The notes beneath the pieces are model-generated. The model worked only from the letters and a program-made list of their open reading frames with translations, was not told the DNA's origin and searched no databases. Positions 4,845 through 32,203 of a stretch of 64,000 nt of DNA are shown piece by piece. Every line of letters starts with the position of its first letter. Position 1 is the stretch's first letter. Both the position numbers and the translations under genes were made by a program. Source of the stretch: Vulcanimicrobiota bacterium (lineage in GTDB: Bacteria; Vulcanimicrobiota; Vulcanimicrobiia; Vulcanimicrobiales; Vulcanimicrobiaceae); the NCBI GenBank assembly GCA_019232905.1, contig JAFANA010000109.1:1-64000 (forward strand). The letters run 5' to 3'.

Positions 4845-7493
4845 ATGTCCGTTTTCGACGCGCTGCACCCTGACGTTGCGCGGTGGTGTCAGGTTCACCT
4901 CGGCGATCCGACGCCGCCGCAGTGCGATGCGCTAGCGCCGGGAATCGAACGCCGCAACCTTTTGATCTCTTCGCCCACCGGTACGGGGAAAACGCTCGCC
5001 GCTTTTCTTCCGGTGATATCGCGCCTCGCGCATGCGCGCGACCGCGACGAGCTCTTTGCGCGTACCTACGCCCTGTACATCTCCCCGCTGCGCGCTCTCG
5101 GGTATGACGTCGAACATAATTTGCGGCGGCCGATGCGCGAGATGCAACTGCTGGAACGGCCGAACACCGAACGCGCAAAGATACGCCGTGGCCGTATCCG
5201 CGAGAAATTCGTACGAACCGGCGTGCGAACGAGCGACACGCCGCAGCAAGAGCGCCGCTTGATGCTCTCACGTCCGCCCCATATCTTGGTGACGACGCCC
5301 GAATCGCTCGCCGTGATGCTCGCGATGGAAAGCTACCGCCGGACATTGCGCTTGGTCGAGACCGTTGTTATCGACGAAGTCCATGCGCTCGCGGGCAATA
5401 AGCGCGGTGCGCAGCTTTCGCTGCTGCTCGAATCGCTCGAAGAACTGGTGGAACAACCGTTCAACCGCGTCGGCTTGTCGGCAACGGTTGCACCGCTCGA
5501 GCGCGTCGCGCAGTTCGTCGCCGGTGCAGACCGCCCGTGCGACGTCATCGACCATCGCGGCTTGCGTAGTATTCGGATCGACGTTGTTGCCCCGTTCGGA
5601 GGCGCGATGGCGCCGCTGGAAACCGTCGCGCAAACTGTGCTGAAGTTGACGAAGGATGAGCGAACGTCGCTCGTCTTCACGAACGTCCGAAGTCAAGCGG
5701 AACGCGTCGCGCATCATATGTCCGAAGCGACGGCTGAAGAGAACACCGTCGAAGAGATCGACGGCGAAGCGCCGCGCCGCGATTACGATCTTTCGAAGAT
5801 CGGCGTGCACCACTCCGCGTTAGAGCGGAGCGTGCGGCATCGCGTGGAGGCGGCGCTGCGCGCCGGGCGGATGCGCACGGTCGTGTGCAGCTCGAGCCTC
5901 GAGCTCGGTGTGGATATCGGGTTCATCGATCGGGTTCTCGTGGTCGGCGGCGCTCGCGGCATGACCTCGACGCTGCAGCGCATCGGGCGCGCGGGGCACC
6001 GTCCCGATGCGATCGCGCGGGGAACGATCGTCGCTCAGGATCGTGACGATATTATCGAAGCCGCGGCGACGAAGCGGTGCATTGCCGAAGGCATCATCGA
6101 CGACGTCGCGATTCCGCAAGCCCCGCTCGACGTGCTCGCGCAGTGGATGGTCGGCAGCGTCTGCTACGACAAACGATTGACGATCGACGAGGTGCTGGCG
6201 ACGGCACAGCGCGCTTATCCCTATGCGTCCGTCTCACGCGACGACGTCGTTCGCTGCGCGCAGTATCTTTCGGGCGGCGGTGCCGGCGGCGACGAAGCCC
6301 ACGTGCGCCGTCTTGGATTCGACGGCGAATCGGTCTTCGGTTTAGGACGCGACGTCTGCTCGGCGTTTTTCGAAAACGTCGGCACGATTCCGGATGAATC
6401 GTCGGTGCTCGTACGCGTTCACGGCAACGACATCGGCCGAGTAGAAGAAGGGTTCGTCAACGAGCTTCAGGTGGGCGATGTCTTCGTGCTCAACGGGCGA
6501 ACGCTGCGCGTGAAAGAACTGAGCGCGACATCGGTCACAGCGGAACCCTTCGCGGGAAGACCGACCGTCCCGCAGTGGAGTTCCCACCTCAAAGGCATAC
6601 CGCTCGCGCTGGCGCGTGAGATCACGCATCTCCGCGTCGGCGTTGCCGAGCGTCTGCGTCTGCGAGACGCCGCCGGCGCGCTGGATTTTCTTCGCGTCCG
6701 GTATGCGCTCGAAGGTCCCGAGGCAGCGCACGTCGTTCGCTATATCGTGCAGCAGCAAGCGCTTTCGGCCGTTCCGGCCGAGGGACGTCCCGTGATCGAA
6801 ATCTATCGCATGGACACACGCCAAACGGCCGTCTTCCACACGTGCGCGGGCCGGCGCGTGAACGAAACGCTAGCTCGTATCGTCGGCGCTCGCGTCTTTC
6901 GCATCGCAAAGGCGAACTCGCAGATTACTACCGACGACAACGGCTTCTTAGTGACGCTCCCGGCGGGCAAAGCGCTGCCGGATGCAACCTGGGCGAGCAT
7001 GCTGCACGTGGAGCATTTCAATCGCGATCTCATGGAAGGATTGCGTAGCTCCCATCTGCTTCGCAATTACTTCCGCTATGTAGCAAACACGGGACTGCTC
7101 GTCTTACGTCGCGCCGGAGGACGCAAGCTGCGTCGCGGCGCGCAGAGCTGGAACAGCCAAAAGATCTTCGATCGCCTTTTTCGCAGCGATCGCGCGTTCC
7201 CATTGCTGCGCGAAACGATCCGTGCGGTCACACGCGATCTGCTCGATGCACCGGCGGCACGCGCGTTCGTCGAATCGATCGTCGGCGAACCGCGCGTTCT
7301 CCACCCGATCGCCGCGTCGCCGTTCACGTTCGGCATCATCACGTCATCGTTCGGCGATAGTGTCGTCTTAGACGACCGCGCAAGCATGGTCGAAGCGTTG
7401 CACGATCGCGTCCTGCAACTTCTCGGCGAGCGCGCTGCCGAAGGTGAAGACATGGCCGACGAACCACAGCTCTCACTCACATGGGGAACATGA
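4845..7493 (+). CDS. lhr: Lhr-family DEAD/DEAH-box helicase (ligase-associated)
   Basis: ATP-dependent superfamily 2 DNA helicase of the Lhr-Core type. Visible motifs are Walker A SPTGTGKT (residues 43-50), motif II DEVH (about 177-180), motif III LSAT (about 210), a motif V region SSLELGVDIGFIDRV and motif VI QRIGRAGHR. The C-terminal half contains the winged-helix and Lhr-specific beta-barrel region. The 882-residue length fits Lhr-Core rather than the 1500-residue full Lhr. Its stop overlaps the start of pdeM in an ATGA. In many bacteria this helicase is clustered with a metallophosphoesterase, an MBL exonuclease and an ATP-dependent ligase (Lhr-MPE-Exo-Lig), and all four occur in this window. 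Confidence 0.93.
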   Translation: MSVFDALHPDVARWCQVHLGDPTPPQCDALAPGIERRNLLISSPTGTGKTLAAFLPVISRLAHARDRDELFARTYALYISPLRALGYDVEHNLRRPMREMQLLERPNTERAKIRRGRIREKFVRTGVRTSDTPQQERRLMLSRPPHILVTTPESLAVMLAMESYRRTLRLVETVVIDEVHALAGNKRGAQLSLLLESLEELVEQPFNRVGLSATVAPLERVAQFVAGADRPCDVIDHRGLRSIRIDVVAPFGGAMAPLETVAQTVLKLTKDERTSLVFTNVRSQAERVAHHMSEATAEENTVEEIDGEAPRRDYDLSKIGVHHSALERSVRHRVEAALRAGRMRTVVCSSSLELGVDIGFIDRVLVVGGARGMTSTLQRIGRAGHRPDAIARGTIVAQDRDDIIEAAATKRCIAEGIIDDVAIPQAPLDVLAQWMVGSVCYDKRLTIDEVLATAQRAYPYASVSRDDVVRCAQYLSGGGAGGDEAHVRRLGFDGESVFGLGRDVCSAFFENVGTIPDESSVLVRVHGNDIGRVEEGFVNELQVGDVFVLNGRTLRVKELSATSVTAEPFAGRPTVPQWSSHLKGIPLALAREITHLRVGVAERLRLRDAAGALDFLRVRYALEGPEAAHVVRYIVQQQALSAVPAEGRPVIEIYRMDTRQTAVFHTCAGRRVNETLARIVGARVFRIAKANSQITTDDNGFLVTLPAGKALPDATWASMLHVEHFNRDLMEGLRSSHLLRNYFRYVANTGLLVLRRAGGRKLRRGAQSWNSQKIFDRLFRSDRAFPLLRETIRAVTRDLLDAPAARAFVESIVGEPRVLHPIAASPFTFGIITSSFGDSVVLDDRASMVEALHDRVLQLLGERAAEGEDMADEPQLSLTWGT

Positions 7494-8257
7494 GCGCGCC
7501 GCAACCTGCTGCCGGATCATTCGAACTCCTTGACGGCGCCGTTGCGTTGCCGGGCGGTTTGCTCTGGCTATCGCGCGCGAATTCGCTCGTCGCTGCAGAC
7601 GTCCACTTCGGATACGAGGACGTCATCGGCGGCGCATTGCCGCTGTGGAGCACGACGGAGACGACGCAGACGCTGCTTCTCGCCGCGCGCCGCATGCAAG
7701 CGCGAGAGATCGTCTTTCTCGGCGACATCATTCATTCGAGCCGCATGAGCGAAGGCGCGGCAAAAGCCGTAAATGACGCACTGACGTTCTTGCGCCGCGA
7801 GTGCACCGTTACGCTGGTAGCCGGAAACCACGAAGGCCGGACACGCGGCGAAGCAATTCTCGGCGAAACGGAAGAGGCCGTCGAACGCGACGGCTGGCTC
7901 TTGCTCCATGGTGACGAACCCCTGCGCGGACGCCGCTGCATCGTCGGCCACTTGCATCCAAGCCTGCCGCTCGACGCACGGCAGAGCGTTCCGGTATTTC
8001 TCGCCGCTCCCCACCTTATCGTCGTACCGGCGCTAACGCCGTACTCTAACGGCCTAAACGCACTATCAAGTGATTGCACTGAAGCGCTACGCGAATTCGG
8101 AGAAACAAAAGACTTCATCGTCGTAGCGAGCACGCACGACCGCGTATATCCGTTCGGCAAACGACGCCGTCTCCAAGGTGTCATGAGTGGAGGCGCGGAG
8201 CGCCACAGTCGAACCGTCTCTATGCGCCATCGCTTACAACGCGACCCCTCAGAATAA
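7490..8257 (+). CDS. pdeM: Ligase-associated metallophosphoesterase PdeM
   Basis: Predicted Mn-dependent DNA endonuclease/phosphodiesterase of the calcineurin-like fold. The five metal-binding blocks are all visible: ADVHFGYE (D.H), FLGDIIH (GD), AGNHEG (GNH), LLHGDE and VGHLHP (GH.H). The ATG at 7490 overlaps the helicase stop as ATGA and follows GGGGAA; an in-frame ATG at 7481 is less well placed. Length (255 residues) is slightly above the usual 220 because of a basic tail (KRRRLQG onward). The partner helicase is immediately upstream, and the exonuclease and ligase of the same repair set lie at 31.1 and 26.6 kb. Confidence 0.88.
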   Translation: MSAPQPAAGSFELLDGAVALPGGLLWLSRANSLVAADVHFGYEDVIGGALPLWSTTETTQTLLLAARRMQAREIVFLGDIIHSSRMSEGAAKAVNDALTFLRRECTVTLVAGNHEGRTRGEAILGETEEAVERDGWLLLHGDEPLRGRRCIVGHLHPSLPLDARQSVPVFLAAPHLIVVPALTPYSNGLNALSSDCTEALREFGETKDFIVVASTHDRVYPFGKRRRLQGVMSGGAERHSRTVSMRHRLQRDPSE

Positions 8258-23570: not shown

Positions 23571-24385
23571 TGCTTGCTGTAAAACTTCTCATGGCAGCCG
23601 CCCTCGTTGCGAGTGCCGGGAAACCGGTCGTCACCATTCATCCCGACGACATGATGGATTCGCCACAGCCGAAAGCGCCGCTCGCGCAGTGGAGTAACGC
23701 AGCCGGGCGCGAACGCACGACGCTTGAGGTCGAGGGTGCACTTCTGCGCGGCTATGTTTACCCCGGCGCAAAAGGTGATGCTCCCGTCCTGCTGATGTTC
23801 GGCGGCAGCGGGAATTTAATCAAACGTCATGATGCGGCGGCGCGAGGGTTTGCGCGCTATGCATCGCGCGTCGTCTGGTACGACTATCGCGGATACGGAT
23901 TCAGCAGCGGAACGGCGCATTTCACTTCGTTGCGGTCGGACGCGCTTCGTATCTACGATGCGGTCAAAAGGCAGAGCGGAAACGCGGGTGTAATCGTGCT
24001 CGGCTATTCGATGGGCACCGCAATCGCCGAATACGTTGCTTTACATCGTGACGTCGCCGGACTGATCCTCGCCGCGCCATGGAACGATATCGTTGCGGCG
24101 AGTGAATATCAGGATCCGAAACATACCTATCGGTTAGCGACGGATGCGGCAACGTTATTCGACGAGATCGCGATGGTCGAGCAAATCCACGCGCCGCTGC
24201 TGGTGTTTCAAGGCACGAAAGACGACGCGATCCCACCGACCCAGGGACCCGCGCTCGAACGCGACGCCGCGTCGCACGATAAGCGCTTCGTCCCAATCGA
24301 AGGAGCCAAACACGATTGGCTGCTGAAAAACCCGCAATCGCAACGCGCGGTCGAAGCGTTCTTCAGGACCGTCACTCAGCACTGA
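23570..24385 (+). CDS. Alpha/beta hydrolase, exported
   Basis: The 271-residue protein has a leader (VKLLMAAALVASAG) and an alpha/beta hydrolase fold. The oxyanion segment MFGGSGNL, the YDYRGYGFSSG motif, the nucleophile elbow G-Y-S-M-G (LGYSMGTAIAEY), the acid in GTKDDAIPP and the His in GAKHDWL are in the right order. The sequence resembles BEM46/YfhR-type serine hydrolases. The start ATG 23570 overlaps the upstream stop (TAATG). Its 3' end converges on and overlaps the ligase remnant by 14 bases. Confidence 0.87.
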   Translation: MLAVKLLMAAALVASAGKPVVTIHPDDMMDSPQPKAPLAQWSNAAGRERTTLEVEGALLRGYVYPGAKGDAPVLLMFGGSGNLIKRHDAAARGFARYASRVVWYDYRGYGFSSGTAHFTSLRSDALRIYDAVKRQSGNAGVIVLGYSMGTAIAEYVALHRDVAGLILAAPWNDIVAASEYQDPKHTYRLATDAATLFDEIAMVEQIHAPLLVFQGTKDDAIPPTQGPALERDAASHDKRFVPIEGAKHDWLLKNPQSQRAVEAFFRTVTQH

Positions 24386-24845
24386 TCCCCTCGCGCGCCA
24401 ACATTTCTTCGTAGATTTGGTCGACGTCGGCCAGCGTGTTGATTTGCGAGACGGGTTTATCGTCACGGATGCGCACGATACGAGGGAACCTGAGCGCGTA
24501 GCCACTTTCGTGCAGAGTGCTGCGTTGGACGATATCAAATGCAACTTCGAGCACGATCTTCGGCTCGACCGACAGGGCGTAGCCGCGCTTACCGGTCTGA
24601 TGCGCGAGAAACCAAGTCGTCATCTCGGCGATTTCGGCATCGGTCAATCCGGAATATGCCTTGCCGATCGTGAGCAAGTTGCCCTCGTCGTCTTGCACGG
24701 CAAACGTATAGTCGGAGAGGACCTTTGCGCGGCGGCCGTGCCCCCATTCGACGGCGACTACCACGACGTCGAGCGTCGTAAGTTCGCGCTTCAATTTAAG
24801 CCACCACTTTCCGCGCCGGCCGGGAACGTAGGGCGCATCGACGCG
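24372..24845 (-). pseudogene. C-terminal remnant of an ATP-dependent DNA ligase
   Basis: The conceptual product matches residues from motif V to the end of the intact ligase at 26.6 kb (for example GRRGKWWLKLKREL, DVVVVAVEWGHG, DYTFAV, GKAYSGLTDAEI, LRFPRIVRIRDDKP). Homology begins abruptly at codon 24845 (RVDAPYVPGRRG, compared with RLDARYHPGRRG in the intact copy), directly after an in-frame TAA. The nucleotidyltransferase domain with the catalytic lysine is absent. Only an internal ATG at 24794 could start translation (140 residues, an isolated OB-fold half), which I consider unlikely to be functional. The matching N-terminal remnant lies at 28.3-28.5 kb. Confidence 0.85.
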
Positions 24846-24848
24846 TTA

Positions 24849-25161
24849 ATGAGAGTATCAGTGTTCCACCTTCCGAGCGCGGTCAGACTCCGAAGTACGA
24901 AAGCGACTGATTAACAGATCCGCTTGCCAAGAGCGAGACCTGTTCGACTATTGCGGGAAAAGCACAAGCGTCGCATTTTTGTGATGTTGGTTTTGTTTTG
25001 TCAGCGCCTTGTTGACAAAAGTCTAGATTTTCCGGGTGCAATAATCCATCTGAACTATATTCATCAGCTCCACCTCGTCCGATAATGAAAATGGGTGGCG
25101 AACCGGAATTCGCAGTCCGTCGTCGGAACAGGGAAGACCGGTCAGTAAGGTGTGGGAGAGT
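24849..25161 (+). other. Gene-free, AT-richer stretch at the edge of the insert
   Basis: This 313-base region between the ligase remnant and the next gene holds no plausible gene. Base composition drops visibly (for example around 24970-25060), unlike the flanking native DNA. It contains a perfect TTGACA (25012-25017) but no -10 element at normal distance. It is presumably the promoter and 5' region of the next gene, together with the insertion junction near 24846. Confidence 0.5.
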
Positions 25162-25878
25162 ATGCAAGGGATAGGATCGATCGGGGCGGCTTGCGCTTTC
25201 GGCGGCATCGATCTCGGTGTCGGCACGTTTGTGCGCGCAACCGGGAATTTCGTGCCCTCGTTATCATTCGGTGGCTCTACCGATGCATCTACGAGCGCCG
25301 TCCCACTTGGTCAATGGGAAGATCACACCGTTGAGACTACCGTTGATGACATTACCATCCGCATTCAGACGTCAAAAACATCTGGCGATACGAACGCTAA
25401 AGCCGCAAATGACGCGTCTGTCGTGATTCACGAAATCGTTACGACGACTCGTGACTCTCTCTACGGCACACAGCAACACACGTCGATAATCGGTGGCAAA
25501 CCGACTGATGGCACTGCAAGCCTGACCGATAGCCAACTTGCAGCTATTGCCGCCGGTCGGTCCTCGATATCGTCCGACGTGGACGTTACGGACAAGCGCA
25601 CTGTAACGCGAACGACATTTGCAACAAATCTTGCTCATAGCTCCGGTGTGCCGGGCTTATCGATCGAACACGATATTACAACGGCGATCGTAGACTCGGA
25701 AACTCAGCATTTTAGTTTGAACCAAAGTGCCAGCTACGACGCACACGATCCGCAACAGCCGAACTCAGCTGAAGCGGTGCTGCAGTCTCTGCAAGCGCAA
25801 GTGGCCAGTCAAGACGGTTTGTCCAAACTGCTTCGCGTGCAGTTTCTGGCTCAAAACATAGTTCAAACCTCCGCGTAA
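25162..25878 (+). CDS. Unknown 238-residue Ser/Thr/Asp-rich protein
   Basis: The ATG at 25162 is chosen because GGGAGAG lies 5 bases upstream. The product is rich in Ser, Thr, Asp and Ala and poor in aromatic residues and Cys. A small Gly/Ala-rich N-terminal segment (GIGSIGAACAFGG) could be a weak leader but lacks positive charge. The middle (residues 45-200) has a regular polar/apolar alternation suggesting beta structure, and the C-terminal 45 residues are helical (AVLQSLQAQVASQDGL). Nothing in it is recognised. It lies inside the AT-richer insert with the next lipoprotein gene, which starts 37 bases downstream. Confidence 0.6.
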   Translation: MQGIGSIGAACAFGGIDLGVGTFVRATGNFVPSLSFGGSTDASTSAVPLGQWEDHTVETTVDDITIRIQTSKTSGDTNAKAANDASVVIHEIVTTTRDSLYGTQQHTSIIGGKPTDGTASLTDSQLAAIAAGRSSISSDVDVTDKRTVTRTTFATNLAHSSGVPGLSIEHDITTAIVDSETQHFSLNQSASYDAHDPQQPNSAEAVLQSLQAQVASQDGLSKLLRVQFLAQNIVQTSA

Positions 25879-25915
25879 CAATCACTTAACAGATTTTCTT
25901 CCAACCGAAAGGGTA

Positions 25916-26404
25916 ATGATGTTCGGGTCAATTCGTTATTCCCGGTTCATTTTGTCTTGCGCACTTGTAGCCGCGCTTTCTGCCTGTGGCGGCGGACGCG
26001 ATGCTATCCCACAAAGCGGGACGTCGTCTCAGAGCGGCAACTCGGCGCCTGCAGCCAAGCAAAATAGAGTGCTTCAGTCGATCGTTATTAAGAAGCCCGA
26101 GTCGCGCGCTCCGCAGGTGTTCGAATCGCCAAATCCGATGACGGTATTCCCGTCAACCAGCCCACCGAGCCCAACTTTTCAGGGCTACATCGACGTGAGC
26201 GATGCAACCGGAGGCGTCAATCTGACGAACTACAGTTGCCAGGGATATCTCACTGTGACGGGAGGTAGTGGTGGCACTGCCCAAATCTACAACGTCTACT
26301 CGATCTATGCACCATTCAGCGGATCGGCGCGCACCTGCAAGTTGCTTGCCTATGGGAACAGCGGTGAAGTCTTTGTGACCGTAAACATTCAAGGAAACTA
26401 CTAA
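25916..26404 (+). CDS. Small lipoprotein of unknown function
   Basis: The 162-residue product has a lipoprotein signal peptide (IRYSRFILSCALVAALSAC, lipobox LSAC) followed by a Gln/Ser/Pro-rich linker and a beta-rich domain of about 90 residues. Translation can start at ATG 25916 or 25919 behind GAAAGGG. It is the last gene of a two-gene unit inside the insert and is followed by a strong terminator. It converges on the ligase gene. Confidence 0.65.
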   Translation: MMFGSIRYSRFILSCALVAALSACGGGRDAIPQSGTSSQSGNSAPAAKQNRVLQSIVIKKPESRAPQVFESPNPMTVFPSTSPPSPTFQGYIDVSDATGGVNLTNYSCQGYLTVTGGSGGTAQIYNVYSIYAPFSGSARTCKLLAYGNSGEVFVTVNIQGNY

Positions 26405-26418
26405 TACTCAACACGAAC

Positions 26419-26456
26419 CACAAAAGGAGTCTCTTTGCGAAGAGGCTCCTTTTGTG
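26419..26456 (+). terminator. Long terminator hairpin
   Basis: A stem of about 16 bp with one mismatch (CACAAAAGGAG-T-CTCTT / AAGAG-G-CTCCTTTTGTG) and a TGCG loop is followed by TTCTTT. Because the arms are A-rich and T-rich it may work in both directions, between the lipoprotein gene and the convergent ligase gene. Confidence 0.85.
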
Positions 26457-26563
26457 TTCTTTCCGGAGTTGCCGCTACGCTACTCCGAAACGTGTAACGT
26501 TACGTCTTGATCTCATGCGCAGCATCCATTCGCGGTCGGCCTTTCCCGCCGAGCCAATAAAGC

Positions 26564-28264
26564 CTAATTAAGTCCTTCGCGGGCGAGCATTTGTGTGTAA
26601 ATCTCTCGCACTCGTTCAATCGTATCGATTTCGGAAGCTGGCTTGTCGTCCCGGATACGCACTATACGTGGAAAGCGAAGAGCAAAGCCGCTCTCGTGCA
26701 AATCGCTGCGTTGTATGATGTCAAATGCTACCTCGATGACAAGTGCCGGCTGCACCGGAATCTCGCCTGCGCGAGCCTTTTCTCGTCGCTGCGTTGGCGG
26801 CAGGCGATGGTCGAGAAACCATTTCGTAAGTGATGCGATTTCGGCGTCGGTTAGACCTGAGTAGGCTTTGCCAAGTGTCATGAGTTCGCCTGAGTCGGTG
26901 CGAACCGCAAATGTGTAGTCTGAAAGCACGCCGGCTCGTTTCCCATGCCCCCACTCTACGGCTACAACGACCACGTCAAGCGTCGCTAGTTCACGTTTGA
27001 GTTTTAGCCACCACTTTCCGCGGCGCCCCGGATGGTAACGCGCGTCGAGTCTCTTAGCCAGCAGTCCTTCGTGGCCCGCGTTCCGTGCCTTCTCGAAAGA
27101 TTCATGAATATGGGCCGCTGCATCGTCCGCCGTGTTCAATAGCTCGTAAGGCGCAGCTGTCAGATGCTCTGTGCTGGGAATCGTCTGCAGTCGTTCACGA
27201 CGAACCGAAAGCGGCTCGTCGATTAGGAACTCTTCCTCGTGCGCTAAGATATCGAAGAACATAAACGTAACGGGGACTTCGGTAAGGAGCTCTGCAGAAA
27301 CGATTTTTCTCTGTAAGCGGGCCTGCAGAAAACGAAATGGTAGAGCGAGACCGCTCTTTTGAGCAATGAGTTCGCCGTCAAGTATGACTGCGCTCTCAAG
27401 AGATTGTGCGGCTTCGATAATCTCCGGATACGACGTCGAAATATCGTCCAGCGTTCTTGAAAATAACACGACTTTATCATCGAACCTGTGTAACTGCGCG
27501 CGAATACCGTCGTATTTATTTTCGAGGATCCAATTCCCGGAGCTAAACTCGCGATAAGACGTGCCGTATTGAATGGGAGAGGCGAGCATGAAGCCAATCG
27601 GCGAACCATATGCGATCTGTATGCTCTCGAGCGCTTTATGCTTTGCCGCAACAGCGACGTGACCAATGTTACTCGATGCCATAACGGCTCGACGGACATC
27701 TTGAGGGCTCTGATCGAATGCCTCCGCGATCCCCTCCAGAACGAGTCCTTCAAGGAGCCCGATGCGCAAGTCACCGGTCATGATCTTAACTACATACTTA
27801 GTTTCGATCTCCGACTCGCAAGCGCCCAAGATTTGCTCGCACAACACCTGGCGCCTTCGGCCGGCGTTCTTCCCCGAGGCTGCTGCGATTTCGCCGAAGG
27901 TTGAGCGCAATATCGCTGGCGTTAGGGGTTCCGCAAAAAGGGCGAGTCGCCGACCCTGACGCGTGAACGGTGCCAACGCCGCGCCTAAGTCACCGTGGCT
28001 ACGATAGTGTCGCCTGAGTTCTACATCTTCGATGTGCCAGACGGCGCGAGCGGCGGCGAGTATGGTAGCGCTGCCGATTCGCAATGATCGCGGATCGGAT
28101 TGCGCAAACGCTCGGCCGCTCAGAAAGAGCGTTGCTGCTTCGAGGTCGAGATCGTCTAGCTCCACAAGATAGGTAGCGACAGCTCGCACCTTGTCGAGCG
28201 TCGAGGAGAGGGCCGCGACGCTCTCACAGATCTCGGAGAAATGAAGAAAAGAGCGTCGTTCCAC
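26564..28264 (-). CDS. ATP-dependent DNA ligase, intact copy
   Basis: Seals nicks with ATP; the closest type is the bacterial ligase of the Lhr-MPE-Exo-Lig repair set. The N-terminal DNA-binding domain (about 1-205) is followed by the adenylation motif K250-Y-D-G, motif Ia/III elements SRTLDDISTSYPE and DGELIA, motif IV EGLLAKRL and motif V KWWLKLKRE, then the OB-fold. All six nucleotidyltransferase motifs seem complete. Length of 566 residues is normal. GTG 28264 starts 5 bases after the stop of the N-terminal remnant and has no good ribosome binding site. Base composition is lower in GC than in neighbouring genes, and two ligase remnants flank it, so it was probably acquired. Confidence 0.92.
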   Translation of the reverse strand: MERRSFLHFSEICESVAALSSTLDKVRAVATYLVELDDLDLEAATLFLSGRAFAQSDPRSLRIGSATILAAARAVWHIEDVELRRHYRSHGDLGAALAPFTRQGRRLALFAEPLTPAILRSTFGEIAAASGKNAGRRRQVLCEQILGACESEIETKYVVKIMTGDLRIGLLEGLVLEGIAEAFDQSPQDVRRAVMASSNIGHVAVAAKHKALESIQIAYGSPIGFMLASPIQYGTSYREFSSGNWILENKYDGIRAQLHRFDDKVVLFSRTLDDISTSYPEIIEAAQSLESAVILDGELIAQKSGLALPFRFLQARLQRKIVSAELLTEVPVTFMFFDILAHEEEFLIDEPLSVRRERLQTIPSTEHLTAAPYELLNTADDAAAHIHESFEKARNAGHEGLLAKRLDARYHPGRRGKWWLKLKRELATLDVVVVAVEWGHGKRAGVLSDYTFAVRTDSGELMTLGKAYSGLTDAEIASLTKWFLDHRLPPTQRREKARAGEIPVQPALVIEVAFDIIQRSDLHESGFALRFPRIVRIRDDKPASEIDTIERVREIYTQMLAREGLN

Positions 28265-28269
28265 GGATC

Positions 28270-28548
28270 TTAATGGGCGCGGCCAGCGATCGGAACGACT
28301 CGAGGCTTGAGGTTAGTTCGCAATCGTTCGAGCTCGAGCTCCGCCGCAAGCGCGCGTTCTAAGGCACGTTGCAACTTGCTTCTCAGATCGGCATCGCGGG
28401 CGGCAAAGGGATTGCCGGTGAAAAACCGCGCCGCGGCATGGAGATCGCCGTCGTCAAGCTCGCGAAAGTACTCGGCGATGAGCGCGATCTTTTCGAGTTT
28501 GCCGCTACGCGCCGCGACGGCGTTCGCGACGTAGGCGAACCGCCGCAT
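28270..28548 (-). pseudogene. N-terminal remnant of an ATP-dependent DNA ligase
   Basis: The first 52 residues (RFAYVANAVAARSGKLEKI, then AEYFRELDDGDLHAAARFFTG-NPFAARD) align well with the first 55 residues of the intact ligase (FLHFSEICESVAAL..., YLVELDDLDLEAATLFLSG-RAFAQSD). The remaining 40 residues (charged, ERALAAELELERLR) do not match, and the frame stops 5 bases before the intact ligase starts. GC content is native-like. It follows the serine hydrolase by 3 bases, as a native operon gene would. Together with the remnant at 24.4-24.8 kb this marks the original ligase locus. It might still be translated as a 92-residue peptide. Confidence 0.8.
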
Positions 28549-31013: not shown

Positions 31014-31127
31014 ATGAGCGCCGTCGATTTTGTTGTTTTATCAGGGCTGGCCGTTTCAGTGATCACGCTGACGGCGTCGCACCGGGCGAAGCTCCGGCGC
31101 GACCAGCCGACGGATAAGAACGACTAG
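31014..31127 (+). CDS. Very small (37-residue) single-helix membrane protein
   Basis: ATG 31014 is preceded by GAGAAGGA at optimal distance. The peptide has one hydrophobic segment (FVVLSGLAVSVITLTA) and a basic, polar tail ([15 protein letters not shown]), the arrangement of a bitopic small membrane protein. Its last 4 bases overlap the convergent exonuclease gene. Function unknown. The good ribosome binding site and topology are the only support. Confidence 0.45.
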   Translation: MSAVDFVVLSGLAVSVITLTASHRAKLRRDQPTDKND

Positions 31128-32203
31128 AACAGGCTCAACTGAGCGTTCGCTTCGAGATACTCGGCGTCGATGCCGAGTGCGCGAAGACGATAGACAAAAT
31201 CGCGCCAACCGTGGTTCAGCAGAACCTTATGCGGTTGGGCGAGTTCAATGTAGCGTAAAAGCGAGGGGTAGTCGGCATGATCCGACAAAGCAAACCCGCG
31301 CTCGGTTCCATAACGAAAGAGTGCGCCGCGATCCAGCGACCAGCCGGTCAATACGGCGGTTCGTACCTGGCGATCGCGTAACGCTTTGGGAAGCGCCTTC
31401 CCGCCCGGCGGCCACACGAGTGCACTCGCCGCGTCGAAAAGCTCGGCATGATAGCGCTTGTACGGCGGCATCGTCACGCCGCACGTTTCGTAGATCTTCG
31501 TCATCGTGTCGATCGCGCCGTGAACGGTCACGGGAATGCCCGCGTTTCCAAGGATCGCAATTGCTTCTTGCGCCTTGCCGAGGGAGTACGCAAAGAAGAC
31601 GGGAACCGCATCCGCTTCGAGCGCGCCCCGCGCAAAATCGATCATCGCGCCGGCAACCTCTTCGCGCGGCGGAAAGACGTAATGCGGCCGGCCGTACGTG
31701 CACTCCATCAGCAGCACGTCGCAGCGTTTGACCTCCGGCGGTTCTGCCGTCAGCGAATCCGTGAGTTTGAAGTCGCCCGTGTAGACGAACGAGCCGCGTT
31801 CACCTTCGATCAGCAACTGCGAACTGCCGAGTACGTGCCCGGCGGAGAAGAGCGTCAAGCGATGCTCACCTTCCATCCACGGTTCGTTGTAGCCGTGTTC
31901 CTCGAACGCCGGGTCGATGCGCTGCCGCTCCGCGCGCGGAAGAAGCGAGAGCTGTTGCGCAGATACGGCGCGGCGCATAAATCGCGCGCGGCAAATTCGA
32001 GCGGTATTCGGTGTTGTGACGACGACGCGATGCTCGCGGGCGTGATCGCTATGGCCGTGCGAAACATAACAGCGTTCGCGCGTGCGCATGCTGTCGATCC
32101 AAAGATCGAGTGCGTCGACATAGAGCGATCGTTCCGAGAGGCTAAACACCGCTGCGCCCCTTCGCTCCGGCAGGGCTTCGGCCTTCGCGAGCCAAGCCTG
32201 CAA
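31124..32203 (-). CDS. Ligase-associated MBL-fold DNA exonuclease
   Basis: Metallo-beta-lactamase/beta-CASP nuclease of the Lhr-MPE-Exo-Lig repair set. The metal-binding block HGHSDHA (H49, H51, D53, H54), the GHVLGSSQ loop, YTGD, the beta-CASP block [12 protein letters not shown] and the SDHADY/LNHGW C-terminal motifs are complete. Length of 359 residues is normal. It overlaps the small membrane protein gene at its 3' end and is divergent from cysK with 35 bases between starts. The intact ligase lies 3 kb away, helicase and PdeM 24 kb away. Confidence 0.92.

Follow-up and report, generated by a model that had tools for sequence, protein, structure and literature searches.

The window, by which we mean the whole 64-kb stretch of DNA analysed here, belongs to a metagenome-type draft genome (144 contigs, 83% complete, 4.3% contamination), and the genomes with which it was compared are mostly drafts. 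About 3.5 kb of sequence with an intact DNA ligase gene lies between two ligase fragments, one at 28548-28393 and the other at 24845-24372. The order on the minus strand is N-terminal remnant, tail, complete ligase and C-terminal remnant, with two plus-strand genes between the last two. The window also contains Lhr-like (4845-7493), PdeM-like (7481-8257) and Exo-like (31124-32203) genes, which score below the curated family cut-offs. The features of the locus are as follows.

28393..28548, minus strand: N-terminal remnant of the native ligase (codons 1-52), with 92% protein identity to the ligase of genome G001 over 52 aa
28270..28392, minus strand: non-ligase tail in frame with the N-terminal remnant, without a match to ligases or other loci
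26564..28264, minus strand: intact ATP-dependent DNA ligase of 566 aa (Pfam DNA_ligase_A_N, DNA_ligase_A_M and DNA_ligase_A_C), foreign by tree position and GC3 (0.57)
25916..26404, plus strand: lipoprotein-like cargo gene, without a family in Pfam, NCBIfam or PHROG
25150..25878, plus strand: second cargo gene, without a family in Pfam, NCBIfam or PHROG
24846..24867, minus strand: right end of the insert, including GGAACACTGATACTC at 24867-24853, common to genome G099 at equal distance from the ligase
24372..24845, minus strand: C-terminal remnant of the native ligase (residues 405-566), with 79% protein identity to G001 and sister to it (support 98/93)

Remnants of the native ligase

The N-terminal open reading frame (28548-28270) is homologous to ligases in the first 52 of its 92 codons (28548-28393), and the remaining 40 match no ligase. 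An earlier sequence-only reading had taken the whole frame as the N-terminal remnant, which is thus 40 codons shorter and ends at 28393; the C-terminal remnant that it placed at 24372-24845 is retained. This second remnant has 157 codons, is homologous to residues 405-566 of the intact copy and matches the Pfam domain DNA_ligase_A_C (E 1e-13). Its homology begins at 24845 directly after an in-frame TAA, as that reading had described, and G001 has the Lys codon AAG of the motif at that place. Aligning both remnants with the intact copy shows that the middle of the native ligase is missing from the window.

G001 is the single other genome of the genus, and its ligase is uninterrupted at the orthologous locus. 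The neighbours are conserved, with ferritin-like, ECH and aminotransferase V genes on one side and asnC, Exo, cysK, asnase and metH on the other. The G001 ligase is the closest match of both remnants, over 52 aa for the N-terminal one and over 160 aligned positions for the C-terminal one, which is its sister in the tree of the C-terminal part. No duplicate ligase was found in G001. The dN of the remnants to G001 is low (0.12 and 0.04), and dS approaches or exceeds saturation. Selection thus acted on the remnants during most of the period after the split from G001, and the break is recent on that scale.

The intact ligase is of foreign origin

The intact ligase (28264-26564) has the three Pfam ligase domains and the nucleotidyltransferase motifs, with KYDG at residue 250, and also matches archaeal LigA models. 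It is 57% identical to the G001 ligase, and its best relative reaches only 61-62%. Joining the intact copy with the remnant is rejected by the AU test in the tree of the C-terminal part (p=0.009), and joining it with G001 is rejected in the full-length tree (p=0.0005). The nearest row in the full-length tree is G035, a member of the same family (92/88), where both trees were built without L005 and L007 and hence without G005, the most similar relative by identity. The GC3 of the intact ligase and of the two plus-strand genes (0.57, and 0.55 and 0.61) is lower than that of the remnants (0.73 and 0.80), while 18 other genes of the window range from 0.63 to 0.78. In what we consider the best explanation, the foreign ligase came from another lineage within the same family and would be active; its frame is open and its motifs are intact.

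Judged from these comparisons, the locus is an in-place xenologous replacement of the native ligase and not an internal duplication, since the remnants are closest to G001, with which the intact ligase shares only 57% identity, and since the intact gene differs from them in its lower GC3 and its place in the tree. This agrees with the sequence-only reading, which had proposed such a replacement with both scars preserved and had described the insert as holding a complete ATP-dependent ligase and two other genes of lower GC. The relative in which it expected an uninterrupted ligase is G001, and the different tree positions that it expected for remnant and intact gene were found; neither a conserved arrangement of remnants and intact gene in relatives nor a sister relationship of the two was seen.

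This type of ligase has no match in several members of the family, indicating that it is not essential across the family. In four further relatives, G103, G102, G093 and G049 (L083, L084, L085 and L050), a ligase of this type is apparently broken by frameshifts or short losses.

A breakpoint and end sequence shared with a genome of another genus

The ligase is also broken in G099, a genome from another genus of the family, and is whole in its close relatives G100, G097 and G101. The N-terminal part in G099 extends to about codon 183 and is followed by 2.9 kb and then by a C-terminal part, which starts at nearly the same codon as the C-terminal remnant of the window. The two inserts have a common end, GGAACANTNATACTC, which lies 28 bases from the first common ligase codon in both. 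With random placements in both inserts, 13 of 15 matches arise once per million and 18 of 28 matches in 20 per million, frequencies that are only indicative, because the motif was picked after both junctions had been seen. A search of 148 genomes of the phylum gave three occurrences of the 15-base end pattern, namely in the window, in G099 and in G075, where it lies inside coding sequence and was judged a chance match. No ligase was found in the G099 insert. The position of the N-side break differs between the window and G099, so that the deletion step of the proposed mechanism is an assumption, and the left end of the insert is absent from the window. The recurrence of the C-side breakpoint and of the end sequence speaks for a site-specific element.

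Recombinase-bearing elements in relatives

Matches to recombinase-bearing elements were obtained in four of 149 genomes (G116, G031, G020 and G111). The G116 ligase is interrupted at its catalytic-lysine motif KYDG by a GInt-like element, which has the core AAGTACGA at both sides and inverted ends (TTCTTCGGATTA and TAATCCGAAT). The element encodes three recombinase-like proteins of 390, 559 and 600 aa, the first and third with the Pfam domain Phage_integrase, followed by a 149-aa GinD-like protein and a complete ligase whose gene overlaps the ginD stop. The three recombinase-like genes, GinD, the cargo beginning at the ginD stop and the imperfect end repeats are all features of GInts. Homologues of this gin operon are present in G031 and G111, and relatives of GinA occur in plasmids with the same gene order.

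The G116 locus (C251:10020-42514; L077/L078) comprises one N-terminal part, one complete ligase and two C-terminal parts, which have 92% DNA identity to each other. Kinase, FHA-ABC and peptidase genes separate these two parts, the second of which adjoins the native flank at a distance of about 11 kb. The extra part indicates that the locus was hit more than once, the same gene having received two or more insertions in succession. The cargo of the element also includes a 1335-aa protein (L077:15444-19451) with weak matches to PADLOC OloB (E 2e-7) and OloA (8e-4), for which a defence role is possible.

In G031, the same operon is preceded by the N-terminus of an Rv2578c-type radical-SAM protein, broken after PYRG before ginA, and a radical-SAM homologue, 65% identical over 37 aligned residues, starts directly after ginD and runs to the contig end. 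The ginD gene of G031 has an internal stop. G020 contains a decayed element (L103:8305-11922) with half of ginA, located at the K-x-D-G motif of a different ATP-dependent ligase. This broken ligase is of the NHEJ type and adjoins a gene for a LigD polymerase domain, so a second ligase type has been struck at its catalytic motif; no spare ligase copy was seen in G020. G111 has its gin operon next to a pirin-like gene, and a spare copy of a target was not seen there. In 45 genomes from other phyla that have related ligases, a search at E 1e-50, which had no positive control, found no GinA-like gene.

Six plasmid GInts were inspected for spare target copies, with one possible case and five without. 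The possible case is the Sphingobium yanoikuyae plasmid pF2 (L196), where a C-terminal fragment of a zincin-like metallopeptidase precedes ginA and a complete homologue, 39% identical over 92 aa, directly follows ginD. The broken ligases in the relatives suggest a mobile element that destroys a gene and brings along a replacement for it.

Content of the insert in the window

The tail resembles a coiled coil. It stops 5 bases short of the foreign ligase and occupies the position of ginD in G116, directly before the ligase. A model of GinD C-termini scored as high on 177-402 of 5000 shuffles as on the tail, and its origin from GinD is a guess. The tail has no match in plasmids, ligases or other loci. 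No significant gin match and no gin remnant was found in the inserts of the window and of G099, and ginABC recombinase genes were found neither in the window insert nor elsewhere in the window genome. A single-protein scan of genome contigs gave no match. The cargo gene at 25916-26404 has at most weak matches in relatives, and that at 25150-25878 has one weak match among 60 relatives. The right end is not clearly similar to the ends of the G116 or G020 elements.

The sequence-only reading spoke of imported DNA, which is correct as to its foreign source and incomplete as to its nature. The import was most likely a site-specific mobile element, because G099 has the breakpoint and end in common with the window and because G116 and G031 repeat the arrangement.

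Alternative explanations

In our preferred reading, which we consider probable though by no means certain, a ligase-carrying mobile element integrated in the native gene and a subsequent deletion left the foreign ligase between two scars. Points against it are that the insert contains no recombinase or recombinase remnant, that the tail scores no better than shuffled sequence as a GinD, that the right end is not clearly similar to those of G116 or G020, that the G099 insert has no ligase and that its N-side break lies elsewhere. Alternatively, illegitimate or homology-assisted recombination could have brought a relative's DNA into the native ligase without any mobile element, the carried ligase then favouring survival. 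The lack of a recombinase in the insert, a donor lineage within the same family and the missing middle of the native gene all fit this explanation, but it does not account for the C-side breakpoint and 15-base end in the independent genome G099, nor for the same arrangement with recombinases in G116 and G031, and we regard it as rather unlikely.

An assembly chimera could be suspected from the fragmentation and contamination of the metagenome-type draft. A single contig, however, contains both junctions and the native genes that flank them, and the same C-side junction is present in G099, which was assembled independently, so that an artefact is very improbable. Even less credit can be given to the idea that the native ligase was duplicated internally long ago and that one of the copies then decayed. 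The remnants and the intact copy are indeed homologous and have the same order and strand, but the sister position of the remnant to the G001 gene, the rejected unions in both AU tests and the lack of a duplicate in G001 oppose it, and we reject it on the trees and AU tests.

Proposed mechanism

A mobile element with its own end sequence would have integrated at the Lys404 codon of a conserved motif in the native ligase, just before RxDxPYxPGRRGK. As the element would bring a complete ligase, the native gene would be broken while ligase activity could persist, the spare ligase taking over the function. Afterwards the region from native codon 53 to about codon 404, and with it the element's left end and recombinase genes, would have been deleted, so that the foreign ligase now stands in the place of the native one, flanked by two scars. 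The observations behind this scheme are the remnants, the foreign ligase, the uninterrupted relative, the breakpoint and end in G099 and the recombinase-bearing arrangement in G116 and G031. A site-specific mobile origin of the insert is likely on these grounds, and the insert is most likely a decayed element of a target-replacing kind. We infer that the element was of the tyrosine-recombinase (GInt/Tn554-like) kind; this assignment is indirect, since no recombinase is left in the insert and the GinD-like tail has no statistical support.

More generally, we see about even chances that tyrosine-recombinase islands in Candidatus Eremiobacterota target codons of conserved motifs, for example in DNA ligases, and carry a spare target as their first cargo gene, so that recombinase decay leaves a clean replacement with two scars. 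If true, a xenologous replacement would in some cases be the fossil of such an element, and there would be a concrete route by which a distant homologue can replace a gene in place without a functional gap. An integrase could perhaps afford highly conserved target codons if its element carries the cure. The genomes named here allow recombinase-bearing and decayed stages to be compared.

Comparison with known systems

The ligase had been assigned to the Lhr-PdeM-Exo-Lig set (TIGR04120-04123) in the sequence-only reading. A ligase and Exo-, Lhr- and PdeM-like genes do occur in one 64-kb window, but all four score below the curated cut-offs and do not form one operon.

GInts are islands with ginABCD, an AT-rich 3' end and cargo that starts at the ginD stop. 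According to Bardaji et al. (2017; PMC5385486), they insert in intergenic regions and at the 3' or 5' ends of genes, one pair being located at the end of a duplicated ribonucleotide-reductase gene. The elements of G116, G031 and G111 resemble them in having three recombinase-like genes and a small GinD-like gene with cargo starting at its stop, and the cargo genes of G116 and G031 overlap or abut ginD. They differ in breaking their target inside a conserved motif and, in G116 and G031, in having a target homologue as the first cargo gene; the passages of PMC5385486 that were consulted contain no description of a spare copy of the broken target. The window insert differs further in having no gin gene.

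Tn552-II, a Tn554-like element, has tnpABC and a target-gene-like gene (tgl), which was proposed to rescue the disrupted target (PMC12486829). The idea of a spare copy is therefore not new, and the literature searched gave no description of this strategy acting on DNA ligases in this group or of its decayed end state. The elements of G116 and G031 are like Tn552-II in carrying a target-like gene, for which the rescue role was proposed there. The window insert has no tnpABC, and the target of Tn552-II is a YolD-like or plasmid gene, whereas here it is a DNA ligase.
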